DNA of 64,000 bases from Chloroflexota bacterium (GTDB lineage Bacteria > Chloroflexota > Anaerolineae > Aggregatilineales > Ch27), in the NCBI GenBank assembly GCA_019873685.1, contig JAIOAT010000013.1, positions 1 to 64,000 on the forward strand, written 5' to 3'. Positions 169-20,306 of this stretch are shown piece after piece. A program made the position numbers and the translations under genes. The first letter of the stretch is position 1. Every line of letters begins with the position of its first letter. The notes beneath the pieces are model-generated. The model was not told the DNA's origin. It did no database searches and saw only the letters and a program-made list of their open reading frames with translations.

Positions 169-204
169 TTGACTCGGTTTTTTGCCGGGGGTATAATGCC
201 CGGC
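169..204 (+). promoter_or_regulatory. sigma70-type promoter with inverted repeat around the -10
   Basis: TTGACT at 169-174 and TATAAT at 192-197 are separated by 17 bases, close to the housekeeping consensus. The expected transcription start is near 204, giving a leader of about 58 nt before the ATG at 262. The -10 box sits inside an inverted repeat, GCCGGG (184-189) and CCCGGC (199-204), which could be an operator or a start-site hairpin. It probably drives the 262-4654 gene run. Bases 1-160 upstream show no gene I can support. Confidence 0.72.
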
Positions 205-261
205 AGTCCAACATGGGTCGCCAACTCGATACTCTGTCCACAGATCAAGAACAGGTCATGG

Positions 262-1199: not shown

Positions 1200-1733
1200 A
1201 TGCAAACAGTCAAGATGGTCATCACCGGCCCCTTTAGTTCGGGCAAAACGGAATTCATCCGCTCCATCTCGGAAATTGAAGTCGTCTCCACCGAACGCGA
1301 CCTGCATAATCCTGCCGAGCAGGAGATCAAGGAGCAGACGACGGTGGCGATGGACTTCGGGCGCATCACAGTCGATGACGACCTGGTGCTGTACCTGTTT
1401 GGCACGCCCGGCCAGCGCCGCTTTGACTTTATGTGGGAGATTCTGGCCGAGGGGATGCTGGGCTTTGTGGTGATGGTCGATAGCTCCAAGCCGGAGACCT
1501 TCCGTGAGGCCAAGAGCATCCTGGAGACTTTCCGCGCATACGCCCCCACGCCGTATGTTGTGGCCGCCAACAAGCAGGATCACGAAGACGCCTGGTCGCC
1601 GGAAGATCTGCGGATTGCCCTGCGCATCGACGACAACGTCAAGCTGCTGCCGTGCGTGGCGCTGGACAAAGAAAGCGTCAAGAACGTTCTGCTGGAGCTG
1701 CTGTATTCCATCCTGGAAGAGATGGAAACCTGA
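1200..1733 (+). CDS. MglA-like small Ras-family GTPase
   Basis: This is a 177-residue single-domain GTPase. The P-loop GPFSSGKTEF lies near residues 10-19, a switch I threonine falls near TTVAMDFG, the G3 motif is FGTPGQRRF, and the G4 motif is NKQD. TPGQ in place of DTAGQ is typical of bacterial MglA/Gtr-like GTPases. Such proteins are cytoplasmic switches that often set polarity or gate signalling. It follows the DUF4388 gene by 62 bases, an arrangement seen in several bacterial phyla. No roadblock/MglB-type GAP gene is present in the window, so its activator is unknown. The Shine-Dalgarno is weak. Confidence 0.85.
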   Translation: MQTVKMVITGPFSSGKTEFIRSISEIEVVSTERDLHNPAEQEIKEQTTVAMDFGRITVDDDLVLYLFGTPGQRRFDFMWEILAEGMLGFVVMVDSSKPETFREAKSILETFRAYAPTPYVVAANKQDHEDAWSPEDLRIALRIDDNVKLLPCVALDKESVKNVLLELLYSILEEMET

Positions 1734-1829: not shown

Positions 1830-2624
1830 GTGGCGTCACTGGTGACTGATCAGGGCATTGTCCATTATGAGACGTATGGCCGGGGGCGGCCTGTCCTGCT
1901 GCTGCATGGCTGGCTTGGCTCCTGGGCGCTGTGGCGGGACACGATCGAAGTCCTGGGCCGGGAATTCAAGACCTACTCCCTGGATTTCTGGGGCTTCGGA
2001 ACCAGCAGCCCGATTGAGGAAGGCTTCAGCTTTTCGGTGCCCAACTTTATCGAACTGGTTAACCAGTTCATGGATCGGCTGGGGATTCGCCAGGCGCCGC
2101 TGATCGGCCATTCGATGGGCGGGACGGTCTCGCTGGGGACAGCTATCAAGTATCCGGAACGGGTGACCAAGGTCGGGGTGGTTGGGTCGCCGATCGTTGG
2201 GTCGTCGCTGAACCTGTTGCTGAAGGCGTCTGGCTACAGGGCGGTGGCCCGGTTCTTCTTTCTATCGCCGCCGGCGGTCAAGCTATTCCTGCGCGGTTAC
2301 GCTTACTTCATGGCTAACGACGGCGCGCGGATGTCCCGGATGATCACCGAGGATTTTTCCCAGGTGACCGTCAATTCGTTCTTTGAAAGCATTGGCACCC
2401 TGCGCCGGACCGATCTCCGTCCGGCGCTCTCCAGCGTGCGCATCCCGACGCTGGGTATTTATGGGCGCAAGGACATCATCGTGCATCCTAACCAGCACCG
2501 GGTGCTGGCCGCCGGCGTGCCCCACGCCCAGGTGCACCTCTTTCAGAATTCCGGTCATTTTGTCATGCTGGATGAACCGGAGAAGTTTCACGAGATCGTG
2601 CTTGGCTTTTTGCGCAGCGCCTAG
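1830..2624 (+). CDS. alpha/beta hydrolase
   Basis: This 264-residue alpha/beta-hydrolase-fold protein has an oxyanion region LLLHGWLGSW (about 23-32), nucleophile elbow GHSMGG with Ser95, an acid in GIYGRKD, and a late histidine in NSGHFVMLDEP. All three catalytic positions are present, so activity is expected; the substrate is unknown. It starts at GTG 1830 behind a G-rich Shine-Dalgarno (1813-1820). It is clearly paralogous to the hydrolase at 18538: both share the HYE..GRGRPV..HGWL.SW block. The next gene starts 12 bases after its stop, suggesting one transcript. Confidence 0.85.
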   Translation: MASLVTDQGIVHYETYGRGRPVLLLHGWLGSWALWRDTIEVLGREFKTYSLDFWGFGTSSPIEEGFSFSVPNFIELVNQFMDRLGIRQAPLIGHSMGGTVSLGTAIKYPERVTKVGVVGSPIVGSSLNLLLKASGYRAVARFFFLSPPAVKLFLRGYAYFMANDGARMSRMITEDFSQVTVNSFFESIGTLRRTDLRPALSSVRIPTLGIYGRKDIIVHPNQHRVLAAGVPHAQVHLFQNSGHFVMLDEPEKFHEIVLGFLRSA

Positions 2625-2636
2625 CAGGAGGCGGCT

Positions 2637-3299
2637 GTGGTCGGGCCGCAGATGGATCAGCCCCCGCTGATGGCGGGCAACGAGCGGCGTTACACTTATC
2701 CGAACCGGATGGGGCGTATCCTGCTGCTCTCATACGAGGAGGTACTGGGCCGCACCGGCTTGCAGGCGCTGCTCAACCTGGCCGGGCATGCCCACTATGC
2801 CCAGTCCCCGCCGCCCAATAATTCCGACCGGCAGTTCAGCTTTGAGGTCATCGGCGGCCTGACGCAGGCCCTGCTGGACATGTACGGACCGCGCAGCGCG
2901 CGCGGCATTGCGCTGCGGGTGGGGCGGGTGTGCTTTAAGCACGGCATCCGCGAATACGGGCCGATGATGGGACTGGCTGAACTCACCTTCCATCTGCTGC
3001 CGTTCAGCATCAAGCTCTCCCAGGGCGCCAGGGCGTTCTGCGAGCTTTTCAACCGCCAGACAGACCAGATCGTGCGGCTTCAGGACACCCCGGAGACGCT
3101 GTTGTGGATCATCGAACGCAATCCGGTGTGCTGGGGGGTGACCGCTGATCGCCCGTGTTGCCATGTCGCTGTCGGCCTGCTGCAGGAATCGCTGCTGTGG
3201 CTCAGCGGCGGCAAGACCTTCCAGGTGGAAGAGACAACCTGCATGGGCTGCGGTGACGAGGTCTGCACGATTGCCATCACCAAGAAGCCACTTGACTGA
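2637..3299 (+). CDS. V4R (4-vinyl reductase-like) domain protein
   Basis: This 220-residue protein has a C-terminal V4R-type domain. It ends with the characteristic cysteine-rich segment ETTCMGCGDEVCTIAI (about 199-214), with three cysteines, and shows the upstream helix RGIALRVGR. V4R domains bind small hydrophobic ligands or act in tetrapyrrole- and aromatic-related signalling. Start GTG 2637 is chosen because AGGAGG lies 5-10 bases upstream; ATG 2652 is too far from it. The gene is packed between the hydrolase and the beta-helix gene, with 12- and 5-base gaps. The ligand is not predictable from sequence. Confidence 0.7.
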   Translation: MVGPQMDQPPLMAGNERRYTYPNRMGRILLLSYEEVLGRTGLQALLNLAGHAHYAQSPPPNNSDRQFSFEVIGGLTQALLDMYGPRSARGIALRVGRVCFKHGIREYGPMMGLAELTFHLLPFSIKLSQGARAFCELFNRQTDQIVRLQDTPETLLWIIERNPVCWGVTADRPCCHVAVGLLQESLLWLSGGKTFQVEETTCMGCGDEVCTIAITKKPLD

Positions 3300-3304
3300 C
3301 GACT

Positions 3305-4654
3305 ATGGCCCCTAAACTGCGCAAATTCATCCTGCAGGACGAACGGCACATCCCGCCGTTCAACGAACCGGCCAGCGAACTGTCCTTTATGGGTAAGCAG
3401 CTCAAGCTGCACCAGGAGGACCTGCTGGCGGAATACTTCGGCGAGCAGCTTGAGCCGACCGCGGAGTTGCCGCTGACCCGGCTGGAAGAACTGGCGGAAC
3501 GCGATGTTGATGGGCCATGCCTGGTCTTCCGCGCCAGCATTTACTTTGACCGTGAGTATCTGGACGCCTTCTACCGGGCGGCGCGACGGCTGGCGCAGCA
3601 GACCGGGCGGGCGATGCGGGCGGCTTATGCGCCGGATGATCGCGTCTTTCAGACCTATGTCCGGCCGCTGACGCGCGGCTTTGAACCGTACTATGGCCCC
3701 GATGGAGAAGTGGCCTGTTACATGGCCGACCTGTGGTACTTCCCCGCCGGGTACACGGATGACATCCAACCGATGATCATCCCCACCGATCCGCAGGAGA
3801 AGGGCTTCTATTCCGTCCCGCACTACATGTCCCAGGATGGGCAGGACCTAACCCACTTCCTTTCCGAGCGGGTGCTGTTTTCCATCGAGAGCTGGGTGCA
3901 CGTCTACTTCGCCAATACGGTGCAGGGTGTCTTTGCCCGTGGGAGCCGCTTTGAGGAACGGATCAAGCGCAGCAACTTCCTGCAACTGAAGATGTTGTGG
4001 CGGGCCATCCTGGAATGGAAGCAGTTGCTCTCCAGCTCGGCGCTGGTGAAGGTGGGCAAGAACACTCAGATTCACCCATCAGCGACCATCCTGGGACCGA
4101 CCACCATCGGCGATAACTGCTACATCGGGCCGGGGGTGGTGATCGACAACTGTCACATCGGGGATAACGTCAGCATCGACCAGGGTTGCCAGTTGATGAC
4201 CAGCGTCATCGGCAACAATTGTTTCTTCCCCTTCCGAGCCTCGTGCTACTTCAGCGTATTCATGAATAACTCTATCCTGGCCCAGAACACGTGCGTGCAG
4301 ATGTGTGTGATCGGACGCAACACGTTCATCGGCGCAGGCAACACCTTCACCGATTTCAACCTGCTGCCCACGCCGATCCGGGCGATGAGCATCCATGGCC
4401 TAGAAGAAGTCGGGCAGATCGTGCTGGGTGGTTGTGTGGGGCATAACTGCCGCATCGGTTCCGGGTTTGTGATCTTCCCGGCGCGGATGATCGAGTCAGA
4501 TACCGTTGTGGCCGCCGATCCGAATAATCGCGTGATCATGCGTAATGTGACGTTTGAACAGAGTGCGCACCATAACATGCCGGATTACATCCGCGAGATG
4601 CACCCGCGCTACTACCCGCGCCCCGGCGAGGCCGCTGAGGAGGAGGAGTGGTAG
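3305..4654 (+). CDS. left-handed beta-helix (hexapeptide repeat) protein
   Basis: This 449-residue protein has an N-terminal globular region (about 1-240) and a C-terminal left-handed parallel beta-helix (about 250-400) built from hexapeptide repeats such as IHPSATILGPTTIGDNCYIG and VIDNCHIGDNVSI. The layout resembles GlmU/sugar-nucleotidyltransferase-type proteins, but I see no clear nucleotide-binding signature (GxGTRL) at the N terminus. The tail is acidic (EEEEW). An acyl- or sugar-handling role is plausible but unproven. Its last 43 bases overlap the convergent minus-strand gene. Confidence 0.72.
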   Translation: MAPKLRKFILQDERHIPPFNEPASELSFMGKQLKLHQEDLLAEYFGEQLEPTAELPLTRLEELAERDVDGPCLVFRASIYFDREYLDAFYRAARRLAQQTGRAMRAAYAPDDRVFQTYVRPLTRGFEPYYGPDGEVACYMADLWYFPAGYTDDIQPMIIPTDPQEKGFYSVPHYMSQDGQDLTHFLSERVLFSIESWVHVYFANTVQGVFARGSRFEERIKRSNFLQLKMLWRAILEWKQLLSSSALVKVGKNTQIHPSATILGPTTIGDNCYIGPGVVIDNCHIGDNVSIDQGCQLMTSVIGNNCFFPFRASCYFSVFMNNSILAQNTCVQMCVIGRNTFIGAGNTFTDFNLLPTPIRAMSIHGLEEVGQIVLGGCVGHNCRIGSGFVIFPARMIESDTVVAADPNNRVIMRNVTFEQSAHHNMPDYIREMHPRYYPRPGEAAEEEEW

Positions 4655-6264: not shown

Positions 6265-6380
6265 GGGGAATCCTAACTTGGTGTTGCCTTAGTTGCGTTC
6301 TTCCAAGTTCAAGGGGACTTTTGCTGATTAATGTCTCGTACAAAGGAACTTCCGGGGTATTGTACATGCAGGAAAGCGAT

Positions 6381-7511
6381 ATGCAAGAGGGCGAGAAACA
6401 GCCACACACCTTTGCCTTTATCATCCACCCGATTGACCCCAAAAAGGATGTCTCGCGCAAGTGGCCCTGGCTGGGCCGCCTGTTGACTCCTGAGCAGGTG
6501 GACTTTTTCTCGCTGTTTTTCCCGCCGGTTTACATCTCCGAGATCACAGGGATTCGTTCCGCCAGCACCGGGCGCGAGTTGCGAGGCTGGTTTGTGGCCT
6601 GCCCGTTCACGCCGCAGCGGATGATGACCCTGCCGGAAGAGCGTGTGTACCGCAAGATCATTGCTACAGGTCGGCTGGCCGAGCGGCTTGGGGCGCGGAT
6701 ACTGGGCCTGGGCGCCTACACGTCGGTGGTGGGCGACGCCGGGATCACCATCGCCCGCGCTCTGGATGTGCCGGTGACCACCGGAGACGCTTACACGATC
6801 GCTATGGCTGTGGAAGCGGTGCGCCGGGCGGCGGAGATCATGGGCATCGCCCTGGGGCAGGCCCATGCGGCGGTAGTCGGCGCGACCGGCGCGATCGGGC
6901 AGGTCTGCGCCGAACTCTTGGCCGGGGATGTCGCCCGCCTGACTCTGGTGAGCCGTCGGCCTGATGCGCTGGCAGCGCTCCGGGAACGCTGCGCCGCAGC
7001 CGGCAGCGCGGAGCTGATCACGAGCACCGACCCGGTCAGCATCTACGACGCCGACCTGGTGCTGACCGTGACCAGCGCCATCACTGCCGTGATCGAACCG
7101 GAGCATCTCAAGCCGGGGGCGGTCGTCTGTGATGTAGCCCGCCCGCGCGATGTCTCCCGGCGGGTGGGGGAGCAGCGCGATGACGTGCTGGTGATCGAGG
7201 GCGGCATGGTGGAAGTGCCCGGAGACGTGGACTTTCACTTCGATTTTGGCTTCCCGCCGCGTATGGCCTATGCCTGCATGGCCGAGACGATGGCCCTGGC
7301 CCTGGAAGGCCGCTATGAGGATTACAGCCTGGGCAAACAGATTTCCCGCGCCCGCGTGGAGGAGATCAGCGCGATTGCTGCCCGGCACGGCTTTCGGCTG
7401 GGGCTTTTCCGCAGTTTTGAGCGCGGCCCGGTCACGCCGGAGACAATCGCCCGCGTGCAGGAACGCGCTGCCAGTGAGCGGCGGCGCTGGTCGCCGCGTC
7501 ACAGCAGTTAA
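6381..7511 (+). CDS. acyl-ACP reductase (AAR)-like oxidoreductase
   Basis: This protein of about 376 residues resembles cyanobacterial long-chain acyl-[acyl carrier protein] reductase along its length. Shared features are LGAYTSVVGDAG, TTGDAYT, a Rossmann loop VVGATGAIGQVCAEL, VIEGGMVEVPGDVDFHFDFG, and the tail CMAETMALALEGR..YSLGKQ. Cyanobacterial AAR reduces acyl-ACP to fatty aldehyde with NADPH. I chose ATG 6381 because AGGAAAG lies just upstream; ATG 6366 is an alternative. No aldehyde-deformylating oxygenase gene is in the window, so the aldehyde, if made, would go elsewhere. A shikimate-dehydrogenase-like function is less likely. Confidence 0.72.
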   Translation: MQEGEKQPHTFAFIIHPIDPKKDVSRKWPWLGRLLTPEQVDFFSLFFPPVYISEITGIRSASTGRELRGWFVACPFTPQRMMTLPEERVYRKIIATGRLAERLGARILGLGAYTSVVGDAGITIARALDVPVTTGDAYTIAMAVEAVRRAAEIMGIALGQAHAAVVGATGAIGQVCAELLAGDVARLTLVSRRPDALAALRERCAAAGSAELITSTDPVSIYDADLVLTVTSAITAVIEPEHLKPGAVVCDVARPRDVSRRVGEQRDDVLVIEGGMVEVPGDVDFHFDFGFPPRMAYACMAETMALALEGRYEDYSLGKQISRARVEEISAIAARHGFRLGLFRSFERGPVTPETIARVQERAASERRRWSPRHSS

Positions 7512-7661
7512 ACCGCCCGGGGGAAGGGCCGGGGCGCGCCTGCCGGTGGCGGTTGGGCCGTTTCGTATGTATAGTTTAGGCGCAGGTATCAACAGGTGGA
7601 GAGGGTGAATGGCCTGACCGACCGGCATGGCTGGCGGGCCTTTGGCGCTGGAGAGCAGCCC

Positions 7662-8591
7662 ATGAACAACAAAGCCAAGCTTCTGGTTGTTGAGGATGAT
7701 GTCGATATCTCCAACATGCTGTGCATCTACTTCAAGAGCCAGGGATACGATGTCCACGTTGCGCCACGTGGCGGTGATGCGCTGGAGTACACCCGCCGGC
7801 AACTGCCACACCTGATCGTGCTGGATATCATGTTGCCGGATATGGATGGCTATACCATCTGCCGGGAACTGCGGACGACAACCCGTACCAGTCACATCCC
7901 GATCATCTTCCTGACCCAGAAAGACGAACGCAGCGATAAGATCGCCGGGCTGGAACTGGGCGCGGACGACTACATCACCAAACCTTTCGACATCGAGGAG
8001 CTGCGGTTGCGCGTCCAGAACGCCATCCAGCGTTCGGAGATGATCTCCCTGACCGACCCCAACTCTAACCTGCCCAGCGGGCGGCTGATCGAGGAGCAAC
8101 TGCGCAGTCTGCTGCGGAATCCTTCCAACAACACGTGGACGTACATTGACCTTAAGATCAACCATCTGGAAGCCTTCAAGGAAGTGTACGGTTTTCTGGC
8201 CGGCAATGATGTGCAGCGTTTTACCGCGCTGCTGCTCGGCGAAGTCGTGGACGAACTGGGCACCCCTAACGATTTCGTCGGTCATCCCGGCGGGGACAAC
8301 TTCATCATCATCACCCACAGCCCCGATCCGGACGCGATGCGGGCGCGGATCGAAACCCGCTTTGAGAACGAGATCAAGCAGCATTATTCGTTTATCGACC
8401 GCGAGCGCGGTTATGTGATTGTCCAGAGTGAGGGGATCGAGCGGCAGGCGCCGCTGATGACCATCTCCACCGGCGCGGTATCCGCGCGGATGCATGCCTT
8501 TGCCGACATCCGCGAGATCACGGAACTGGCCGCCGAGGATCGCCGGTCAGGCGGGCAGGCAGCGATCGAAGATTACGAGACGGAGTGGTGA
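7662..8591 (+). CDS. response regulator: receiver plus degenerate GGDEF domain
   Basis: This 309-residue protein has an N-terminal receiver domain (about 5-120) with the acidic pair EDD, phosphoacceptor Asp in VLDIMLPDMDG, Thr in IIFLTQ, and Lys in YITKPF. The second half (about 130-280) has the shape of a GGDEF domain (DPNSNLPSGRLIEEQL), but the signature reads HPGGDNF. Glu is replaced by Asn, so diguanylate cyclase activity is unlikely; it may bind nucleotide or a partner instead. ATG 7662 follows GGAGAG at a good distance, while the in-frame GTG at 7596 does not. It lies 41 bases before the giant kinase and is probably its partner. Confidence 0.85.
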   Translation: MNNKAKLLVVEDDVDISNMLCIYFKSQGYDVHVAPRGGDALEYTRRQLPHLIVLDIMLPDMDGYTICRELRTTTRTSHIPIIFLTQKDERSDKIAGLELGADDYITKPFDIEELRLRVQNAIQRSEMISLTDPNSNLPSGRLIEEQLRSLLRNPSNNTWTYIDLKINHLEAFKEVYGFLAGNDVQRFTALLLGEVVDELGTPNDFVGHPGGDNFIIITHSPDPDAMRARIETRFENEIKQHYSFIDRERGYVIVQSEGIERQAPLMTISTGAVSARMHAFADIREITELAAEDRRSGGQAAIEDYETEW

Positions 8592-8632: not shown

Positions 8633-11600
8633 ATGAACCTGGCGCTAGTGTTCATCATCGCCGGTGTTGTGCTGCTGGCAGGCGTGTATGTCGCCCTGCG
8701 CTACCGGCCCCAGACTGCCCCGCCTGCCTCCGGGCCGCCGGTGCCGGTCAGCCTGGCCAGCACAACCGACGCCATCCTGTTGGCCAGCGGCTACGGGCGG
8801 ATCGCCTTCGCCAACCGCCATGCCCGCGATTGGTTCTCGCTGGATGATAGCGAGCCGGACCTGGAACTGCTGGCCACGCAGGTTCGCCCGGCAGATGCCT
8901 TCCGCGATCTCTTCGCCGCGGAGGGACGGGCGATGCTTCAGGTCGGCCAGCGACGCGTGGAAGCGGCCTCGTACGCCCTGCCGGGGGAGACGGGCCGCTA
9001 CCAGGTGGTGATCCTGCGCGATACCGCCAGTGCACGTACCGTCTACGGCCCGGACACCGCGCGGGCGCTGACGACGCTGGGTGAGATCGGCCAGCGCATC
9101 GGCGATGGTACCCCTCTGCCGGATACACTGAACGCCATTCTGGCTACGTTGCGACGGGCCATTCCCTTTGATGCCGGGCAGGTGCTGATCGCCAGCGCCG
9201 AGGGTCAGCCGCTGCGATCCCTGGCGGCTGTTGGCGAGCGAGCGATCCTCCAGGCGCTGGAACGCCAGGCGCGGGAAGGCCAGGGCAACAGCGGCTGGAT
9301 CATGACCTACCGCGAGCCGCTGCTGGTGGAACGCGCTCCGGATTCCGGTGCGGGGCGCGAGGCTCCCCTCTTTGAGAGCTACATTGGCGCGCCGCTGCGC
9401 ATCGGTGGGCAGTTCATTGGTGTGCTGCAGGTGGTCAAGGCGGAGCCAGAAGCGTTTGACTTCGATGACCTGAGCCTGCTCAGCGCCGCGGCGGATCAGA
9501 CGGCGGCGGCGATTGACCGCGCCTGGTTGCTGGATGAGAAGATCGCCCGCGCCAGGGAACTGGCCGGGCTACAGGCTATCATCCAGGTGGCGGCTGGCGC
9601 AGCCGATCGGGAGGCCCTCTTTGCCGCATTGACCCGCCAGGTAGCCGAGGCGATGGATGTCGAATTGTGCGGCGTCTTCGTCTATGATCCGGCGGGCGCC
9701 CGGCTGGTTGCCGCCCCGCCGTTCTATGGCGTCCCTGAAGCAGCGGTCGCCGCGGCCCGCTACTCCCTGGCGGAAGGCACGCTGACGCGCCGCGCCTGGC
9801 TACGTGACGAAGGCTGGTACGCCAACGATCTGCGCGAGGGCGGGCTGATCGATAGCCTGGGCTGGCGCGACCATGCCGCAGCGATGGGCCTGCGTACGCT
9901 GGCGCTGATGCCGTTGCTGGTGGGGCGGCGGCGGGTGGGTCTGATCCTGCTGGGCAACCGACGCGGCGGGCAACTTTTTGGCCCGGCAGAATTGCAGCGG
10001 CTGCGCCTCTTTGCTGCCCAGACGGCAGTAATTGTGGAGGCCGCAGCGCTGGCCGAGCGTGATCGCCGCCGCCACCGTGAACTGGGCGCATTGCAGAGCT
10101 TCAGCCTGGCCGTGGGGCGGGCAGGCAAAGCCGAAGCCGTGTTTCGGGCGGCTGCCGAGCAGATCACGGCGCTGCTGGGGGCGGAGATGGGCGGCGTGCT
10201 GCTGCTGGACGACCGCGTCAGTGTGCTGGCGGCCCATCCCACTTTTTACGGCGTTGACCCGGCGCTGATCGAATCGGTGCATCTGCCTGTCCCGGCAGGG
10301 AGCAAACTGGCCAATCTGTGGGCGGCGGAGGGCTGGCTGTGCAACGATCTCAGCCAGGACCCGGTGGCGCAGGAAGCCGGCCTCGAACAACTGGCCGACT
10401 GGGTTGGTATGCGCCAGATGTTGCTGGCGCCGCTGATTGTCAGCGGTCGCCCGATCGGCGCGTTACTGGTCAGCAACAAACGGGATGGCAGCGGCTTCAC
10501 CCCCGACGACGCCCGGCTGGCGAACATCTTCGCCGCCCAGGTGGCCGTGATCCAGGCCAATTCCCGTCTACAGGCCGAGGCGCAGGCTCAGGCAACTGAG
10601 GCGCGTGTCCTGGGCGAACTGGCGGAACGTCTGGCCTCTCCCGCCTCTCTTGATGCTCTGGTAGGCGAGACGCTGGCGGCGGTTGCTCGCCTGTTTGATA
10701 GCCCGGTCGCGCTGGTCGACCTCCGGGATGAGATCGGCGGCGCGCTGAAGGTGGAGCCGGAACATGTGCGCGGCGCGGCGCTGAGTCAGCCGCTGTTGCT
10801 GCCGGAGGCGACTCCGTTCGAGCAGCCCCTGCTGAGCAACGATCTGCTCCGGGAAAGTGGCCTGCCGATCGCTTATCGCCCGTTGATCGAACAACTTGGC
10901 TTGCGGAAGGCCCTTATCGCACCCCTGCGCGGCGGCAGCCAGACGCTGGGCGATCTCGTCGTCGCCAATCGCGGGCGCGCCGATTACAGTCCGGCTGAAC
11001 TGCGCACCCTGACACTGATCGCGGCTCAGCTCAGCGCCGCCGTGGAACGCCAGCGTCTGGCGGCCATGACCGATCAGGCGCTACAGGCCCGGCTGGCCGA
11101 ACTGGAGGCGCTGGGCCGGGTCAGCAATGCGCTGGGCCTGAGCGTCGAACTGGAACACATCCTGCAGGTCATTCGCCAGGAGGCGACACGCGTCACCGGG
11201 GCTGAATGCACCATCCTCATGCTCGCCCCTCAGGAAGACTGGGCCGACCTGGATCAGCCGGAGATCATGCGTCGTCATGGTGCAGAAGATCGGCTGACGG
11301 AGATCGCGCCGGTCGAGCAAATGGCGCTGGAGAGCGGCGAGATCGTCCGCATCCCGGACTACGCCGCCGTTGCGCTGGCTCCGGCTCCAGCGGGGGCGGC
11401 TTCGGCGTTGATCGTGCCGGTGCAGTACAGCGGGCGGGTGGTCGGCGCGATCCATGTCTTCGCCGGTGCGCCGGGCGCTTTTGACGCCCGGACGGAAGAC
11501 TTCCTGACCGCGCTGGCGCTCAAGGCTTCTACCGCCTACGCTAACGCCGCGCACTTCCGGGAGCAGATCAGTCGCAACCAGTTGCTCAGTCGCCGTGTGG

Positions 11601-14600
11601 AGCAACTCAACCAGGTCTTCGAACTGGGGCAGGTCATCCGCGCCGGGCGCAACGTGGATGAGTTGCTGGAAGCGGTCGCTCATGCCGTGCAGTCGGCGGC
11701 GGGTTATGCGGTCGTGCTGATCAGCCTGTATGACGAAACGGTTGACGGTTTCCGCCGCACGGCCCAGGCGGGCATCCCACTGGCGACCTTTGAGGCGATG
11801 CGCGGGGTGGTGCTGCGCCGGTCGCGGATCGAGGGTCTGCTACAGGAGAAGTTCCGCATCAGCCACTCGTATTTCTTCCCGGCGGAGCGCGCCGCTGAAT
11901 GGCGTCCATTCCTGACGGACGAGGAGATCGTCTACCACCGCGAGTACGTTCAGGATGAACAGGTCAGTGCGTTGTGGCAGCCGGATGATGCGCTGGTGGT
12001 GCCGCTGCGGGATACGCGCGGCGGGCTGCTGGGCATCATGACCGTCGATGCGCCGCTGGATGGCCGCCGCCCGACCGCCGCCACGCTGGAGCCGCTGGAG
12101 ATCTTCGCCCAGCAGGCGGCGATCGGCGTGGAGAACGCCCGCCTGCTGGAGGTGATCCAGCGGGAGGCGCAGGTTGCCCGCCGCGACCGCGACCTGATGG
12201 AGCGCCTGTACGCCGTTTCCACCCAGATTCAACAGGCCCTGGATGTGCCTTCCCGCCTGCAGGTGGTGGCTCAGGGCATCCAGAACGCCGGCTGGCGGCA
12301 TGTATCGATCACCCTGCGCGACGCCAACCTGGACCCGACCACCCTGATCGCGGTGGGCTATACGGAGGCGGAACTGGATGCGCTGCAGGCGAGCCTGGAA
12401 AGCGGTCGCCAGCTGCGCGCCTGGCTGGATGATCCTCTGTTTTATGAGACGCGGGTCGGGGCTGCTTTCTACCTGCGCTATGACGCTCCCTGGGTGATTC
12501 AGAATCTGCGCGGCGGTCAGCCGCCCGACCCCGCCGAGGCTGTCCCTGCCGGGCGCTGGCATCCCTCTGATCGGATTCTGTTGCCAGTCTACGGGGCCGA
12601 GAACCGGCTGATCGGCCTGATCGGCATGGCTGACCCGGCGGATGGCCGGGCGCCGACCGAGGACAGTCTGCGACCGATCCAGCTATTCGCCAGCCAGGCC
12701 GCCAGCGCCATCGAGCTAACCCGGCTGTACCAGGAAACCAGTCGTGCCGCCGAACAGGAAGCGCTGTTCAACCAGATGATGCAGGCCGTGACCGGCACGC
12801 TGGATGTCGAGCAGATCATCCAGGCGGTGGCGGAAGGGTTGCAGCACTTCCTGCTGTTCACCCACATGAGCGTGGCTCTGTATAACACCGCCGACGACCG
12901 GTTTGACCTGCTGGAGGCCAGCTTTGTCGCGGTAGATCGTGTTGAGGTGCAATCCGGCGGCTCCCTGCCCGCAGCCGGGACAGCGCTGGCCGCCGTGCGG
13001 GAGGCCAACCGCGGTCAGGTGCGCTTTGCCCCGGCCAGCCTGGAGCCATCTCTGGAGCCGGATGTTCGCCAGTGGTGGGAAGCCGGCGAGCGTTCGACGA
13101 TGCTGATCCCGATGCCGGCAGGCGGCGAGGTGATTGGCGTCCTGCATCTGGGCAGCGAGAGCCAGCGTGCTTTTGGCTTTGACGAAGCGACAATGGCGCT
13201 GGTCCAGCGCATGACTAACCTGGCCTCGGTGACCATCGCCAACGCCCGGCTTTACCAGCGGACGGTTGAGCGCGAGCAATTCTCGGCGGCGCTCGTCCGG
13301 CTGGGCAACGAACTGAACGCCACCCTCGATCTTTCCGCCATCCTGGCCAGCATCTGCCAGGAGAGCCTGGCCATCCTGGAGGTGGATGGGGCGTACATCT
13401 GGCAGGCCGAGCGCGATGAACTGGTGGGTATTGCCGGGGTAGGGCCGGCCAGCGATCGCTTTGTGGGTCTGCGCGTTCCCCAGGCTGATGACCGGCTGCT
13501 GGCGTCGCGCGTCTTTGCCACGCGGGAGCCGCTGTCGGTCAACCGCTTTGCGGAGCAAGAGGCGATACGCATCGCTCTCGCTGAGGAGATCACAGCCAGG
13601 GCGGTGATGGGCGTGCCATTGCTGCGGGAGGGGCATGCACTGGGCGTGCTGGTCGTCGCCCGTACGGCCTCTGACCGGCCGTTTACCGCCGATAGCCTGG
13701 AACGGGCGGCCATCTTTGCCACGCAGGCGTCCATCGCGGTGCAGAACGCCCGCCTGTACCAGGACATGCGCGACCTGCAGGGCTACACCAGCGCGATCAT
13801 TGAGTCCATCCAGCAGGGTATTGTCGTGCTGGATCGTGCTGGGCGGATCACGCTGTTCAACTCCGCCATGCGCCGCGCCTATGGCTGGGGGCCGGAGGCG
13901 ACGGGTCAGCCGCTTGCGGCTTACCGCCCGGAACTCGCCGCCCTGCTGGCGGAGGCTATGGGCGCTGTCCTGGCGGAGGGCGAGCCGCGTCTGGTGTACA
14001 ACGCCCCGGCTCGCACGGTCAGCGGGCAGGCGGTTATCCAGAACCTCTATCTGTATCCGCTGCAGCAGGGATCAGAAGTCGCCGGGCTGGTGTTGCTGGT
14101 GGACGATGTCACCGAGCGCGCCCAGCTTGAAGCCGACCTGGAACGCCGGGCAGAGCAGCTGGCTGCCCTGACCGATATCTCCAGCCGGTTGACGGCTACG
14201 CTGGAACCGGACGACGTGATCCGGCTGGTGCTGGATCAGCTTGGCCGGGTGGTGGCCTACGATGGGGTGACGCTATGGCTGCGGGAAGGGGATGCCCTGC
14301 GGGTCGCCGCAATCCGCGGCTACAGCGATGACACCGGCAACGGCGCCGGCGAGCCGATCGGTCAGACGACCGCCATTGCCGACAGCCCGCTGTTCGTGGA
14401 GATGGCTACCCGCCAGCAGGCGCTCAACGTGCTGGACATGACCCGCGATCCTCGCTTCCCACCGGAGATGCGGCGCGGGATGCGCAGCTGGCTGGGCGCG
14501 CCGCTGGTCAGCAAGGGCGAGATGATCGGACTGCTGGCCCTGGATAAAGCTGAGCCGGTCTACTACACCACCGCCGATGAGCAGCTGATCCTGGCCTTTG

Positions 14601-17600
14601 CCAACCAGGCCACTGTCGCCCTGGAAAACGCCCGGCTCTTCGCTGAGGCTCGCCGCCGTACGCAGGAGTTGACGCAGCAGACCGCGCGCCTGAGCCTGCT
14701 CAACCGCGTTTCGACCAAGCTGGCCCAGTCGCTGGACATTGAAAACATCTTTGAGGTAGCCCTGCAGGAAAGCATGCAGGCGCTGGGGGCCACTTCAGCG
14801 CGGGCGTTGCTCTTTGACCAGGAGCTACACATCGCCTCAGTGTTGATCGCCGTGCCGCGCGGCGATACCCCACCGACCGAAGTTGTCCCGCTGAACGATC
14901 CGGCGCTGGCGCACCTGCGGCACACCTCCCAGCCGCTGGTGGTGGCCGACGTCCGGGAAGAGCCGCTGCTGGCGGGGATGCAGGCCCGGCTGGTCGAGCG
15001 CGGCGTGACCGCCCTGATGCTTCTCCCTCTGCAGGTCGGACGCCAGGTGATCGGCGCATTGATGCTGGAAGCGGCGGGTGCGCCGCGCGCCTTCACGCCG
15101 GAGCAGGTCGAGCTGGCCGGGACGATCGCCGGCCAGGCTGCCATTGCCGTCCAGAACGCCAACCTGCTGGAACAGTCGTTTGTCCGCACGCGGGAACTGG
15201 AGACGCTGCTGGAAGCGTCCCAGATGATGTCCCTGACGCTGGAACTCGGCGAAGTGACTCGCAGTGTCGCCACGCAGGTCGCCTACGCCCTGGAAGCTGA
15301 CCGCTGCGCGGTGATGCTGTGGGACGAGGTTGAACAAGCGCTGGTGGTCTCCGCTGATGTTCGGCGGGAAGGCGACGCGATTCTCCCGGCGCCAGCAGAG
15401 GCGGTCTGGCCGCTGGAGAACTATCCGGCGCGTCGTCAGGCGCTGGAATCGCGGGCGGCGATTCTGGTGCGCCAGGGCGAGGCGGAGCATCCTCATGAGC
15501 GTACGGACATGGCGGCGCAGGGCTGCGCCATCCGCGCGCTGGTGCCGCTGGTCGTCCGGGAAAATGCCATCGGCCTGATCCAGATCGACATCAATGATAA
15601 GTACCGCAGCTTTGGCCTGCGCGAGCAGCGCATCGCCCGGACGCTGGCCGGGCAGGCGGCCATCGCCATTGAGAACGCCCGCCTGAACAGCGAGACGGCG
15701 GCCCAGGTGCAGGAAGCTTTCCTGATCAACGATTTGAGCCGGGCGGTGTCAGCAGCGGTGGATATGCGCGAACTGCTGCCGATTGTGCGCTCCCAGATTC
15801 CAGCGTTGACCCGCGCCGGCTGGCTGTACCTGGCCATCTACGATCAGGAGCATGATGTCCTGAGCTTCCCGGTAGCGATCCGCGACGGCGTGGAGCATCC
15901 GCTGGAAGCCCGCCCGCTGGCGAATGATGAGTTCTCCTGGATCGTGCGCAACAATCGCCCGCTGCTGCTGGTCGGCGACGATCTGGCGGAAGTGCGCCGC
16001 AACCTGGAGATCGAAACGCTGTTGCCAGAAGCGCGCAGTCTGCTCGGCGTGCCGCTGTCGGTTGGCTCCAGCGCGGTGGGCGTGCTGGTGGTGGCCGACG
16101 CGCAGCGCACGCGGGCGTTTGGGCTGAGCGAACAGCGCGTCCTGACCACCGTCGCCAACCAGCTGGCTGTCGCCGTCCAGAACACTAATCTGTTCTCCGA
16201 ACTGCGTCGTCTGACGCTTGACCTGGAGATGCGTGTCCACGAGCGCACCGAGGAACTGCGCGCTGAGCGCGACCGGCTGAACGTGCTGTACCGCATGACC
16301 GCCGAGCTTTCGGCCACGCTTGACCTGGATCGCGTGCTGAACCGGGCGCTGAGCCTGCTGGCCGGGGCCGTCGGCGCTGATCAGGGCCTGATCATGTTGA
16401 TCGATCATGCCCAGTCCCGGCTGTACAAACGGGCCGAACTGGGCGCGGAGTTCGCCAGCGCCGGGATGGACGCCGGTCTGCGGCTGGATGAAGGGCTGGC
16501 TGGCTGGGTGATCCAGAACCGCGAGTCGGTGGTGATCGACGATGTGCAGGGCGATCCGCGCTGGGTGGTCACCGCGCCGCACCACCGCGAGCCGCGTGGC
16601 ACGCTGGCCGTACTGCTGGAAACCAGCGATGATGTGCTCGGCGTGCTGTTGCTCTACAGCGTCCGGCCAGGGGCCTTCAACCAGGATCATCTGCGCCTGG
16701 CCATCGCCGCCGGTAACCAGCTGGCTACATCGATCAACAACGCCGAACTGTACCTGTTCATCCGCGAACAGGCGGAACGGCTGGGCGATATGGTCCGTGA
16801 GCAACAGGTGGAGGCTTCCAAGAGCAACGCTGTCCTGGAAGGCGTGGCTGACGGCGTGATGTTTGCCAACGAGTTCGGCGAGATCACGCTGTTCAACAAT
16901 GCGGCGGAGCGCGTGCTTAACCTGCGCCGCCAGGACGTGATCGGGCGTTCCATCCGCACCTTGACCGGCCTGTACGGCGGCGGCGGGCGGCGCTGGGCCG
17001 AGCGCATCGAAGCCTGGATGCGCGAACCGGGCGATATCCGCCCCGGCGAATACTTCTCCGAGACGCTGGAACTGGGTGAGCGGGTGGTCAACGTGACCCT
17101 GGCTCCGGTCAACCTCGGCGATCAATTCCTGGGGACGGTGTCGGTCTTCCGCGACATCACCCGCGATGTCGAGGTTGACCGGATGAAGACCGAGTTCATC
17201 TCCAACGTGTCCCACGAGTTACGCACGCCGTTGACGAGCATCAAGGGGTACGCCGACCTGCTGGTCAAAGGGGCGGCGGGTCAGGTCAGCGATCTGCAGA
17301 TGAACTTCCTGACCACGATCAAGAACAACGCTGACCGCCTCAACCGGCTGGTCGATGACCTGCTGAACATCTCGCGCATCGATTCCGGGCGTGTGGCGCT
17401 GGACCTCCGCCCGGTGCAGCTTGACCTGCTGGCGCGGGAGGTCTTCAATAACCTGCGCGGGCGTTGCGCCAGTGAGGGCAAGGCCCTGACGCTGGTCGAT
17501 GACATCCCTGATGACCTCCCGATCACGTATGCTGACCCGGACAAGCTGACGCAAATCCTCACCAACCTGACGGACAACGCCTATCGGTACACTCCTGAAG

Positions 17601-17902
17601 GTGGTAAGATCACCCTGTCGATCCGCCTGGAGGATGGCCGGTTCCTGATCGCGGTGCAGGATACCGGGATCGGCATTCCGGAGGAAGTCCAGGCGCGTGT
17701 ATTTGAGCGCTTCTTCCGCTACAGCGAACACCCGCTGGTGATCGAGACGCCGGGCACCGGCCTGGGGTTGGCGCTGACGCGCGAACTGGTGGAGATGCAT
17801 CACGGCACTATCTGGCTGGAGAGCGCGGTTGGTCAGGGGTCGACCTTCTTTGTCTCGCTGCCGCTGGTAGAAGCGCCCCCGGCTGATGACGCCGGGTTGT
17901 GA
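8633..17902 (+). CDS. giant multi-GAF/PAS sensor histidine kinase
   Basis: This single uninterrupted 3089-residue protein begins with one membrane segment (about 3-24) and a PAS-like domain (about 40-130). About nine GAF domains follow, ending near residues 300, 470, 645, 815, 980, 1175, 1370, 1545 and 1710. Then come a PAS domain (1722-1840), five more GAFs ending near 2005, 2180, 2355, 2520 and 2708, and a third PAS (2730-2845). The kinase core has HisKA with SHELRTP (His2861), N box (NLTDNAYRYTP), G1 (DTGIGIPEE), F (ERFFRY) and G2 (GTGLGLAL), so it looks active. Many GAFs end in a shared QAAIAVxNARL helix. It is flanked by two receiver genes. The ligands are unknown. Confidence 0.93.
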   Translation: MNLALVFIIAGVVLLAGVYVALRYRPQTAPPASGPPVPVSLASTTDAILLASGYGRIAFANRHARDWFSLDDSEPDLELLATQVRPADAFRDLFAAEGRAMLQVGQRRVEAASYALPGETGRYQVVILRDTASARTVYGPDTARALTTLGEIGQRIGDGTPLPDTLNAILATLRRAIPFDAGQVLIASAEGQPLRSLAAVGERAILQALERQAREGQGNSGWIMTYREPLLVERAPDSGAGREAPLFESYIGAPLRIGGQFIGVLQVVKAEPEAFDFDDLSLLSAAADQTAAAIDRAWLLDEKIARARELAGLQAIIQVAAGAADREALFAALTRQVAEAMDVELCGVFVYDPAGARLVAAPPFYGVPEAAVAAARYSLAEGTLTRRAWLRDEGWYANDLREGGLIDSLGWRDHAAAMGLRTLALMPLLVGRRRVGLILLGNRRGGQLFGPAELQRLRLFAAQTAVIVEAAALAERDRRRHRELGALQSFSLAVGRAGKAEAVFRAAAEQITALLGAEMGGVLLLDDRVSVLAAHPTFYGVDPALIESVHLPVPAGSKLANLWAAEGWLCNDLSQDPVAQEAGLEQLADWVGMRQMLLAPLIVSGRPIGALLVSNKRDGSGFTPDDARLANIFAAQVAVIQANSRLQAEAQAQATEARVLGELAERLASPASLDALVGETLAAVARLFDSPVALVDLRDEIGGALKVEPEHVRGAALSQPLLLPEATPFEQPLLSNDLLRESGLPIAYRPLIEQLGLRKALIAPLRGGSQTLGDLVVANRGRADYSPAELRTLTLIAAQLSAAVERQRLAAMTDQALQARLAELEALGRVSNALGLSVELEHILQVIRQEATRVTGAECTILMLAPQEDWADLDQPEIMRRHGAEDRLTEIAPVEQMALESGEIVRIPDYAAVALAPAPAGAASALIVPVQYSGRVVGAIHVFAGAPGAFDARTEDFLTALALKASTAYANAAHFREQISRNQLLSRRVEQLNQVFELGQVIRAGRNVDELLEAVAHAVQSAAGYAVVLISLYDETVDGFRRTAQAGIPLATFEAMRGVVLRRSRIEGLLQEKFRISHSYFFPAERAAEWRPFLTDEEIVYHREYVQDEQVSALWQPDDALVVPLRDTRGGLLGIMTVDAPLDGRRPTAATLEPLEIFAQQAAIGVENARLLEVIQREAQVARRDRDLMERLYAVSTQIQQALDVPSRLQVVAQGIQNAGWRHVSITLRDANLDPTTLIAVGYTEAELDALQASLESGRQLRAWLDDPLFYETRVGAAFYLRYDAPWVIQNLRGGQPPDPAEAVPAGRWHPSDRILLPVYGAENRLIGLIGMADPADGRAPTEDSLRPIQLFASQAASAIELTRLYQETSRAAEQEALFNQMMQAVTGTLDVEQIIQAVAEGLQHFLLFTHMSVALYNTADDRFDLLEASFVAVDRVEVQSGGSLPAAGTALAAVREANRGQVRFAPASLEPSLEPDVRQWWEAGERSTMLIPMPAGGEVIGVLHLGSESQRAFGFDEATMALVQRMTNLASVTIANARLYQRTVEREQFSAALVRLGNELNATLDLSAILASICQESLAILEVDGAYIWQAERDELVGIAGVGPASDRFVGLRVPQADDRLLASRVFATREPLSVNRFAEQEAIRIALAEEITARAVMGVPLLREGHALGVLVVARTASDRPFTADSLERAAIFATQASIAVQNARLYQDMRDLQGYTSAIIESIQQGIVVLDRAGRITLFNSAMRRAYGWGPEATGQPLAAYRPELAALLAEAMGAVLAEGEPRLVYNAPARTVSGQAVIQNLYLYPLQQGSEVAGLVLLVDDVTERAQLEADLERRAEQLAALTDISSRLTATLEPDDVIRLVLDQLGRVVAYDGVTLWLREGDALRVAAIRGYSDDTGNGAGEPIGQTTAIADSPLFVEMATRQQALNVLDMTRDPRFPPEMRRGMRSWLGAPLVSKGEMIGLLALDKAEPVYYTTADEQLILAFANQATVALENARLFAEARRRTQELTQQTARLSLLNRVSTKLAQSLDIENIFEVALQESMQALGATSARALLFDQELHIASVLIAVPRGDTPPTEVVPLNDPALAHLRHTSQPLVVADVREEPLLAGMQARLVERGVTALMLLPLQVGRQVIGALMLEAAGAPRAFTPEQVELAGTIAGQAAIAVQNANLLEQSFVRTRELETLLEASQMMSLTLELGEVTRSVATQVAYALEADRCAVMLWDEVEQALVVSADVRREGDAILPAPAEAVWPLENYPARRQALESRAAILVRQGEAEHPHERTDMAAQGCAIRALVPLVVRENAIGLIQIDINDKYRSFGLREQRIARTLAGQAAIAIENARLNSETAAQVQEAFLINDLSRAVSAAVDMRELLPIVRSQIPALTRAGWLYLAIYDQEHDVLSFPVAIRDGVEHPLEARPLANDEFSWIVRNNRPLLLVGDDLAEVRRNLEIETLLPEARSLLGVPLSVGSSAVGVLVVADAQRTRAFGLSEQRVLTTVANQLAVAVQNTNLFSELRRLTLDLEMRVHERTEELRAERDRLNVLYRMTAELSATLDLDRVLNRALSLLAGAVGADQGLIMLIDHAQSRLYKRAELGAEFASAGMDAGLRLDEGLAGWVIQNRESVVIDDVQGDPRWVVTAPHHREPRGTLAVLLETSDDVLGVLLLYSVRPGAFNQDHLRLAIAAGNQLATSINNAELYLFIREQAERLGDMVREQQVEASKSNAVLEGVADGVMFANEFGEITLFNNAAERVLNLRRQDVIGRSIRTLTGLYGGGGRRWAERIEAWMREPGDIRPGEYFSETLELGERVVNVTLAPVNLGDQFLGTVSVFRDITRDVEVDRMKTEFISNVSHELRTPLTSIKGYADLLVKGAAGQVSDLQMNFLTTIKNNADRLNRLVDDLLNISRIDSGRVALDLRPVQLDLLAREVFNNLRGRCASEGKALTLVDDIPDDLPITYADPDKLTQILTNLTDNAYRYTPEGGKITLSIRLEDGRFLIAVQDTGIGIPEEVQARVFERFFRYSEHPLVIETPGTGLGLALTRELVEMHHGTIWLESAVGQGSTFFVSLPLVEAPPADDAGL

Positions 17903-17952: not shown

Positions 17953-18528
17953 ATGGCCAGGATTCTGATTGCTGAAGACGAGCGCGACATCCGCGATCTG
18001 GTGGACTTCACGCTCAAATTCGCCGGGCATGAGGTGCACACTGCCGCCAACGGCCTTGAGGCGGTTGAGCTGGCTCCGCAGGTCATGCCTGACCTGATCC
18101 TGCTGGATGTGCGGATGCCGCACATGACTGGCTACGAAGCCTGCCGCGCCCTTAAGCAACTGGAGACCGTCAAAGACATCCCTGTCGTGTTCCTTTCCGC
18201 CAAAGGGCAGGATGTTGAGATGCAGGCCGGGCTGGCAGCCGGGGCGGTGGATTACATCCTCAAGCCCTTCGCCCCGGATGACCTGGCGCGGCGGGTGGCG
18301 GAAATCCTGCAGGCGCATCCTCGCGTTGTGACCGCACCCGCTGGCGCGGAAGCGAGCGGGACGGTTACGGCAGGCCCGGCTACTGAGGCTGCTGAACCGG
18401 CGGTAGAGGCAGCTGGCCCGCAGACGGCAGAGCAGGCGCCGCCGCCAGCCGCCGAAGCCGGCCCGGAAGCTACAGCAGGGGATGAAACAGCGGGCCTTCC
18501 GGCAACCGACGTGGATGAGACCGGGTGA
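17953..18528 (+). CDS. single-domain response regulator with Ala/Pro-rich tail
   Basis: This 191-residue protein is a complete receiver domain (about 1-120): acidic EDE near residue 9, phosphoacceptor Asp in LILLDVRMPHMTG, VFLSAKG, and Lys in YILKPFAPDDL. It is followed by about 65 residues rich in Ala, Pro, Glu and Thr, probably disordered. There is no DNA-binding or enzymatic output domain, so it likely acts through protein contact or as a phosphate sink. ATG 17953 follows GGGGAG; a GTG at 17899 overlapping the kinase stop is less likely. It lies 50 bases after the kinase and 9 before the hydrolase, consistent with one operon. Confidence 0.88.
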   Translation: MARILIAEDERDIRDLVDFTLKFAGHEVHTAANGLEAVELAPQVMPDLILLDVRMPHMTGYEACRALKQLETVKDIPVVFLSAKGQDVEMQAGLAAGAVDYILKPFAPDDLARRVAEILQAHPRVVTAPAGAEASGTVTAGPATEAAEPAVEAAGPQTAEQAPPPAAEAGPEATAGDETAGLPATDVDETG

Positions 18529-18537
18529 AAGGCGAGC

Positions 18538-19572
18538 ATGAGCGCCATAACCATTGACAACGATCTGGTGCACTATGAGGTGCTGGGTCGGGGCCGCCCG
18601 GTGGTCTTTGTGCACGGCTGGCTGAGTTCCTGGCGATACTGGCTGCCGTCCATGCAGCACCTGTCCATGAAGTACCGGACGTACGCGCTGGATCTATGGG
18701 GGTACGGCGATTCCAGCAAGGACACCGAAAAGCTGTCGCTGGAAGCACAGGTCGACCTGCTGAGCCAGTTCATGGATCGGCTGGGCATCTCCAAGGCGGC
18801 TTTCATCGGTCATTCGCTGGGTGCGGCAGTGATGGTCCGCTACGCGTTGTTGCACCCGGAACGTGTAGCGCGGCTGTTGCTGATCAGTCCGCCGATTTTT
18901 GAGCAGGGTCCTCAGCCCGTAGAGGCTCCCGATGCGCCGCCAGCCCGCCCGGCCAATCCGCCTTCGACGCCGACCCCGGCAGCACGGCGGTTGCCGCCCG
19001 TGGATAGCCTGGCCCGCCCGCCTGTTGTAACGCCCGGACGGTTGCCCGCTTTCCGCCCGCCGACGACTCTCAGCCGCGCTACGGTACAGAATCCGCCGCC
19101 GCGTAACCCGGTTCCGCCGGTGCGCCCGGATCCGGCGGCCAACCCCTTGCGCAGCTTGTTGCTGGATGTGACGCCGACCGAATTGCTGGCCCAGCATCTG
19201 GAACGGGAGACGCCGGAATACGACCGGCATATGGTCGAAGCGGCCAAGACTGCCCAGGCGGCGCTGGCCGCCAGCGTGGCGTCCTTTGACCGGGTTAACC
19301 TGGCCCTGGAGATCCGCTACCTGGTGGAAACGCCGACGCTGATCCTGCACGGCCAGGATGATCGCTTCCTACCGCCTCCCGGCGATCGGGTGGTGCAGTT
19401 GCTGGGCGGCAATCGGCCTACCCTGCGCTGCGAGATCGTGCCCTCGACCGGGCACTTCCCCATGCTCAGCGACCCCACGAATTTCCAGCGCCTGATCATG
19501 GACTTCTTGGAAGCGACGGATCTCACCAGTCTGGTGCTGCACAAGGAGCGCTGGGTGCGCCGGGTGCGCTAG
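18538..19572 (+). CDS. alpha/beta hydrolase with proline-rich insertion
   Basis: This 344-residue alpha/beta hydrolase has the oxyanion region VFVHGWLSSW, nucleophile elbow GHSLGAA, acid in HGQDDRF and histidine in STGHFPML. It is a paralogue of the hydrolase at 1830: the first 115 residues align without gaps. It differs by about 70-85 residues rich in Pro, Ala and Arg (about 122-205) placed where the lid domain sits, probably a flexible linker. It starts 9 bases after the receiver gene and belongs to the kinase gene group. The substrate is unknown. Confidence 0.83.
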   Translation: MSAITIDNDLVHYEVLGRGRPVVFVHGWLSSWRYWLPSMQHLSMKYRTYALDLWGYGDSSKDTEKLSLEAQVDLLSQFMDRLGISKAAFIGHSLGAAVMVRYALLHPERVARLLLISPPIFEQGPQPVEAPDAPPARPANPPSTPTPAARRLPPVDSLARPPVVTPGRLPAFRPPTTLSRATVQNPPPRNPVPPVRPDPAANPLRSLLLDVTPTELLAQHLERETPEYDRHMVEAAKTAQAALAASVASFDRVNLALEIRYLVETPTLILHGQDDRFLPPPGDRVVQLLGGNRPTLRCEIVPSTGHFPMLSDPTNFQRLIMDFLEATDLTSLVLHKERWVRRVR

Positions 19573-19598
19573 GGCAGAAGCGATCCCGGTTGCTCCCG

Positions 19599-19625
19599 CG
19601 CCGCCCCCTGACCGGGCGGCGTCGT
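19599..19625 (+). terminator. hairpin after the hydrolase
   Basis: An 8-bp GC stem (19599-19606 with 19614-19621) with a 7-base loop is followed by a weak T-containing tail (TCGTGTTTG). It may end the kinase operon, but the poor T-tract leaves doubt. Confidence 0.4.
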
Positions 19626-19655
19626 GTTTGCTGGCCGCTTGCACAAGGAGGTGCT

Positions 19656-20306
19656 ATGCAGGCGCTGATCTTCGCCAATGGCGATCTCAATCCTGGCCCG
19701 CTGGTAGACTACGTCCTGCAGGATGCAGGCGATGCGCTAACCATTGCGGCGGATGGCGGGGCGCGGCATATGCTGGCCCTGGGCCTGGCTCCGCAGGTGG
19801 TGATCGGTGACATGGATTCGCTGAGCGAGACCGAACTGGCGCACTGCGCGGCGCTGGGCGCGGCCATCCTGCGCTATCCGCCTGCCAAGGATGAGACCGA
19901 TCTGGAGCTGGCGCTGTTGTATGCCGCCGGGCGCGGCGCGGAGACAGTGCGTGTGATCGGCGCGATGGGCGGGCGGCTGGATCAAACGCTGGCCAACATC
20001 CTGCTGCTGACCCTGCCGGTTCTGCGCGGGCGGGATGTGCGGCTAGTGGCCGGGCGGCAGGCCGCCTGGTTGCTCTGGCCCGGCCAGCACCGCCTGGACG
20101 GCCAGATCGGGGACACGCTGTCGCTCATCCCACTGGGCGGGGAGGCAGCGGGAGTTGCCACAGATGGGCTGGCCTATCCACTGCGGGATGAAACGCTGCT
20201 CTTTGGCCCGGCGCGGGGCATCAGCAATGTCTTCAGCGCGGATGCTGCAGCCGTACGCTTCAGCGCCGGGATGCTGCTGGTCGTCCACACGCTGGGCCGG
20301 GCGTAA
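19656..20306 (+). CDS. thiN: thiamine pyrophosphokinase
   Basis: This 216-residue protein converts thiamine plus ATP to thiamine pyrophosphate in the cytoplasm. Family signatures are the N-terminal AADGGARHM, the metal-binding GDMDSL, the KDETDLELAL segment and the GAMGGRLDQTLAN motif. The length is normal for bacterial enzymes. ATG 19656 sits 5 bases after a strong AAGGAGG (19645-19651). Other thiamine genes are not in the window, so this may serve salvage. Confidence 0.9.
   Translation: MQALIFANGDLNPGPLVDYVLQDAGDALTIAADGGARHMLALGLAPQVVIGDMDSLSETELAHCAALGAAILRYPPAKDETDLELALLYAAGRGAETVRVIGAMGGRLDQTLANILLLTLPVLRGRDVRLVAGRQAAWLLWPGQHRLDGQIGDTLSLIPLGGEAAGVATDGLAYPLRDETLLFGPARGISNVFSADAAAVRFSAGMLLVVHTLGRA

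Follow-up and report, generated by a model that had tools for sequence, protein, structure and literature searches.

Multi-input sensor kinases are common, and how the signals of many sensor domains add up is an open question. Histidine kinases with several GAF domains are known as a kind. GAF beads on long helices are found in the tandem-GAF phosphodiesterases PDE5 and PDE6 and in the cyanobacterial adenylyl cyclase (1ykd), which have two GAFs, an NKFDE motif and a cyclic-nucleotide ligand. Known prokaryotic tandem GAFs are described as having anti-parallel coiled coils between their GAFs (PMC1592074). In the LOV kinase YF1, activity varies with linker length in a seven-residue period, and steps of 4 residues (stutter) and of 18/5 are recognised coiled-coil variants (PMC6798134). 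The literature that we searched, with incomplete coverage, yielded no described giant multi-GAF kinase in Chloroflexi. A phylum-wide family of such giants with fixed partner genes is apparently unstudied.

The window, that is the whole stretch of 64,000 nucleotides analysed here, comprises bases 1-64000 of an 83-kb contig from a draft genome of 4.1 Mb in 109 contigs. It encodes a giant GAF-array sensor histidine kinase of 3089 residues (8633..17902; this and all features below are on the plus strand unless stated otherwise). PDE5, PDE6 and 1ykd are some of the best-matching PDB folds for its GAFs 5 to 7, and the layout of GAF beads on long helices is predicted to be common to all of them, but the kinase has 14 GAFs and a kinase output, and NKFDE is not conserved. 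With phytochromes and cyanobacteriochromes, it shares an N-terminal PAS-GAF order and a helical path to a HisKA core; however, it lacks their bilin Cys arrangement and has 13 further GAFs. Orthodox HisKA kinases of the PnpS, WalK and PhoR type have the same C-terminal core of PAS, HisKA and HATPase (NCBIfam PnpS 303 bits and WalK 280 bits, both under the curated cut-offs), but the giant kinase places 14 GAFs and two extra PAS domains ahead of it.

An initial annotation, made from the sequence alone, had described an unbroken 9.3-kb frame with about 14 GAF and 3 PAS domains, an intact HisKA/HATPase core and a single membrane helix, and all of this was borne out. The frame is open from ATG to TGA. 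One hydrophobic helix is present, at residues 3-24 (8639..8704; Kyte-Doolittle 2.79 over 19 residues). The domain search proposed at the time, which might have returned far fewer GAFs, recovered 14: Pfam gave 14 stretches with GAF_2 (E 1.5e-140), 13 with GAF and 14 with GAF_3, and a family-specific HMM positioned 14 units. Both Pfam and the family HMM support GAF 1 (9104..9520), GAF 2 (9593..10042), GAF 4 (10637..11050), GAF 10 (14192..14629), GAF 11 (14723..15157), GAF 12 (15230..15676), GAF 13 (15749..16183) and GAF 14 (16310..16741), the last also by phylum comparison. The family HMM supports GAF 3 (10118..10561), GAF 8 (12791..13243) and GAF 9 (13316..13747) and, together with an AlphaFold2 model, GAF 5 (11135..11545) and GAF 7 (12230..12718). 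GAF 6 (11639..12136), likewise positioned by the family HMM, is further supported by genome searches and the model; it is the sensory unit best conserved phylum-wide (31-44% identical), and GAF 14 is the second. Two PAS domains were seen by Pfam, B (13793..14122; PAS_4) and C (16829..17161; PAS), the latter immediately N-terminal of the kinase core. The third, PAS-like domain A (about residues 44-137, 8762..9043), gave no Pfam match; in an AlphaFold2 model based on 26 orthologues, its strands and helices follow one another as in PAS domains, and Foldseek matched it to phytochrome PAS-GAF.

Single HisKA (17183..17389, residues 2851-2919, E 1.9e-20) and HATPase_c domains (17534..17866, residues 2968-3078, E 1.4e-29) close the protein. 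The phospho-acceptor of the H-box, His2861, is kept in 28 of 28 aligned sequences, and the ATP-site motifs N, G1 and G2 are intact, with N2982, D3010-x-G3012 and G3041/G3043/G3045 nearly invariant. The kinase had been called a hybrid, wrongly: Pfam found no Response_reg match within the 3089 residues, and the receivers are separate adjoining genes. It is an orthodox kinase, with no receiver in the same polypeptide.

An order-level search covered 41 genomes, namely the window's own, 4 of the same genus or family, and 36 Aggregatilineales (Anaerolineae), and 38 of them had a kinase match at E <= 1e-60. A same-genus copy has 3083 residues and is 96% identical; a 3130-residue orthologue lies on a 2.1-Mb contig in a different family of Aggregatilineales. 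Between the window and the same-genus copy, dS is 0.33 and dN 0.020 (dN/dS 0.061, and at most 0.14 for any GAF unit), which indicates purifying selection on every GAF unit. A phage search with the kinase gene gave no match. In one relative, the kinase is broken into several ORFs, the longest of 989 and 935 residues, and the adjoining REC-GGDEF gene loses frame midway, through sequencing errors or decay.

Beyond the order, a search of the class with the N-terminal 1170 residues matched 59 of 199 genomes at E <= 1e-40, single-contig genomes included, and a search of the phylum with GAFs 5-6 matched 43 of 251 at E <= 1e-30. Related loci in named genomes carry the taxon labels Aggregatilineales, Anaerolineae, Anaerolineales, Ardenticatenia and Chloroflexi. 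Within Aggregatilineales, complete orthologues carried 10-17 GAFs; the range was 7-13 for the rest of Anaerolineae and 9-17 for Chloroflexia, so that a count first thought rare turned out to be ordinary for relatives within Chloroflexota. Three complete Chloroflexia genomes, which we take to be those of Chloroflexus aurantiacus J-10-fl, Roseiflexus sp. RS-1 and Herpetosiphon aurantiacus DSM 785, respectively, have kinases with 13, 9 and 17 GAFs. As in the window, these combine a GAF array with PAS, HisKA and HATPase, and have hexapeptide and REC-GGDEF genes upstream, with a V4R gene in two of the three. Unlike the window kinase, they have no hydrophobic helix among their N-terminal 60 residues, and they match it clearly only in GAF 6 and GAF 14, the units of clearest identity across Chloroflexota. 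Sequence comparison thus indicates an old kinase family, spread over much of the phylum and usually beside the same partner genes.

Upstream of the kinase, domain searches and synteny identified a DUF4388 (PATAN) protein (169..1137), a small Ras-like GTPase (1200..1733), an alpha/beta hydrolase (1830..2624), a V4R-domain protein (2637..3299), a left-handed beta-helix (hexapeptide) protein (3305..4654), a reductase distantly related to acyl-ACP reductase and the PigE N-terminus (6321..7511; E 1.5e-33, under the curated cutoff), and a response regulator with REC and a degenerate GGDEF, GGDNF (7596..8591, likely start 7662), which stops 41 bases before the kinase start. A single-REC regulator with an A/P/E-rich tail follows (17953..18528; in its longest frame, from 17899, it overlaps the stop codon of the kinase), then a second alpha/beta hydrolase (18538..19572) and a thiamin pyrophosphokinase (19590..20306), both often conserved. 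This order, from PATAN to thiamin pyrophosphokinase, recurs in other Anaerolineae families, among them in a 4.4-Mb single-contig genome. No gene of the locus is better conserved than that of the GTPase, next to the PATAN gene: identity is 71-94% across the compared loci, and 71-79% in other Anaerolineae families. The GTPase matched Pfam Ras, Arf and ATP_bind_1 and, besides these, TIGR00231 only; the upstream genes inspected in one complete genome included no Roadblock. A minus-strand ORF at 6309-8495 was rejected as a gene, as it overlies conserved plus-strand genes.

Both immediate partners of the kinase are REC proteins by Pfam, the single REC also by alignment, and in nearly all Aggregatilineales loci REC-GGDEF lies directly upstream and single-REC directly downstream. 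REC-GGDEF also adjoins the kinase at the level of the class and the phylum. Among the 199 class genomes, 57 had both kinase and REC-GGDEF, 2 the kinase only, 13 the regulator only and 127 neither (Fisher p 2e-34, a value that ignores shared ancestry). The upstream partner has the architecture and the invariant REC Asp of diguanylate cyclases of the PleD kind, the phospho-acceptor Asp being present in all 46 copies that could be read. Unlike theirs, however, its signature motif is degenerate in every copy: GG[DE]EF was intact in none of 48, and GGDNF, GSDNF, GRDNF, GNDNF, GGDDF and other variants were found instead. In the same-genus genome, this gene is split by an insert (locus 2629-4854) carrying an opposite-strand ORF of 377 residues that looks like an IS-type transposase, and the regulator may be dispensable in that strain.

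Linkers between GAFs (558 in all) have few lengths, mostly 24 or 25, 28, 31 or 32, 42 and 49 residues, a clustering whose chi-square is not valid as a probability since the linkers share ancestry. In the window, the 12 linkers of ordinary length measure 24, 25, 25, 28, 31, 31, 24, 24, 31, 24, 24 and 42 residues. Lengths differ by 4, 7, 18 and 25 residues, which roughly keeps helical phase. The window linkers gave a phase resultant of 0.78-0.79, a value attained in 0 to 1 of 5000 trials under a jitter of ±3 residues; this test, limited to the window, is fairer than chi-square, and its 12 linkers may also share descent. Phase coherence was absent from GAF domain lengths (0.02). An AlphaFold2 model of GAFs 5-7 (pLDDT 85) has 53-residue helices, at model residues 148-200 and 345-397, running between the GAFs, and its best fold matches were the tandem-GAF phosphodiesterases PDE5/PDE6 and phytochromes; it is a monomer with a pTM of 0.46, at which domain orientation is not reliable. 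Together, quantised linkers and long predicted helices favour a dimeric coiled-coil spine bearing GAF beads. Anti-parallel coiled coils of the kind known from other prokaryotic tandem GAFs would break such an in-line spine.

We infer dimerisation, signalling along the spine, the phosphotransfer partners and the output, and the reading that we hold to be somewhat probable is that, in a dimeric orthodox kinase, a helical spine integrates several inputs from the cytoplasm, and that the kinase phosphorylates the REC-pseudoGGDEF protein, the single-REC protein, or both. The kinase would be tethered to the membrane, with its 14 GAFs and 3 PAS domains along a near-continuous coiled coil of helices that exit one GAF and enter the next. 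Ligands or partner proteins at some GAFs would alter the twist of the spine, most likely at least at GAF 6 and GAF 14, the pair retained across the phylum. PAS C would relay this change to HisKA, leading to autophosphorylation at His2861, and the phosphoryl group would pass to the neighbouring REC-pseudoGGDEF, with the single-REC protein as a second recipient in Anaerolineae. As no copy retains the GGDEF motif, the output probably takes the form of contact between proteins, the Ras-like GTPase and PATAN protein of this locus being possible targets, and not of c-di-GMP synthesis or DNA binding. A cytoplasmic integrator of many ligands, as the kinase was first read, is a plausible description that we retain, although column conservation brought out no signature of ligand binding, and some GAF units may bind no ligand.

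The array could be thought recent, grown by tandem duplication, or its length an assembly expansion, as the exit motif QAAIAVxNARL is repeated in the kinase. Growth by tandem duplication, suggested by the initial annotation on these grounds, is real, yet recent only in one cousin family, where 2-4 extra units of the unit-11 type, with 45-64% identity, lie between unit 8 and PAS B. In the window, the all-against-all comparison then proposed found no paralogues above 34% identity over at least 75 residues (the closest full-length pair being GAF 2 and GAF 3, at 34%), higher identities being confined to stretches of less than 60 residues, and units at the same position in cousins were far closer. 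In a tree of 377 GAF units (29 proteins compared), 12 of the 14 window units fell in well-populated clades without a second window unit, and clades had essentially one member per protein, with unit 11 as one exception and unit 5, in four proteins, as the other. Support was 0.61 for the unit 5 clade and at least 0.93 for most others; the GAF 9 clade was patchy (9 of 29 proteins), and units 2 and 3 were intermixed. As these 12 units group with the same-position units of cousins, the array is older than the diversification of Aggregatilineales. Recent expansion in the window is ruled out by the unit tree and reciprocal best matches, and an assembly artefact by independent assemblies and long contigs with kinases of similar length, some of them in single-contig genomes; overall, we consider this explanation very improbable. 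A photoreceptor of the phytochrome or cyanobacteriochrome type is hardly credible either. Bacteriophytochromes were the top Foldseek matches of PAS A plus GAF 1 (E about 1e-9), but at 7-14% identity. Column conservation revealed in no unit a conserved Cys or His placed as in a bilin or haem site, so that the cofactor residues for which a check of each GAF had been advised were not found; GAF 1 has no conserved His, and the protein has 7 Cys in 3089 residues, of which C346 (unit 2) and C2225 (unit 12) are conserved and, on our reading of the alignment, appear to sit in a core strand.

A more serious alternative to many-input integration is that most GAFs are ligand-free dimerisation beads forming a long rod, and that only GAF 6, GAF 14 and the kinase-adjacent PAS sense. 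It is possible, if unlikely. Good identity in almost every lineage is seen only for units matching GAF 6 and GAF 14, whereas the other units vary in number and identity; the conserved residues of the bilin/haem class come down to a strand Cys; and the NKFDE motif is full in no unit, unit 3 having an N-K...F...D-D resemblance at which few columns could be checked across orthologues. Conversely, each unit is strongly constrained, and most have held their own identity since the order arose, beyond what a generic spacer needs. The range of 7-17 GAFs among relatives does imply that most units are not each essential in all species. As to the partners, the kinase might feed the downstream CheY-like single-REC protein only, the REC-pseudoGGDEF being a bystander or acting upstream. 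The single-REC gene follows the kinase closely in most Anaerolineae loci, and the split REC-GGDEF gene of the same-genus strain fits this idea; it is made doubtful by Chloroflexia, which keep REC-pseudoGGDEF beside the kinase and in whose examined regions the single-REC partner had no match. Integration along a spine, with phosphotransfer to either or both regulators, is the reading that we keep.

In its boldest form, it would make the locus an undescribed phylum-wide system in which a coiled-coil spine, with GAF dimers numbering up to 17 and its helical phase kept over about 3000 residues, integrates many metabolites of the cytoplasm and controls the Ras-like GTPase/PATAN pair through a catalytically dead REC-GGDEF; we regard this as quite unlikely. 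One array has been repeatedly lengthened and shortened, from 7 to 17 GAFs, while linker phase, kinase core and partner genes were kept, and this offers a set of natural variants on which the passage of signals along coiled coils can be tested. The locus is conserved and apparently unstudied, in a large phylum that is hard to culture, and relatives are available in complete genomes of cultured members.

Two further observations were made on this genome. A minus-strand ORF (4612-6264) lies between the hexapeptide gene and the reductase gene, two direct neighbours in the same-genus genome, and encodes a probable membrane protein of 550 residues; it had no Pfam or NCBIfam match and was absent from every comparison locus, its GC content is about 0.52 against about 0.66 nearby, and it looks like a lineage-specific insertion. 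Elsewhere in the genome, GAF_2 gave 65 matches, and further long GAF frames of 1304, 1376, 1633 and 1708 codons were found, so that the window kinase appears to be the extreme of a general expansion.
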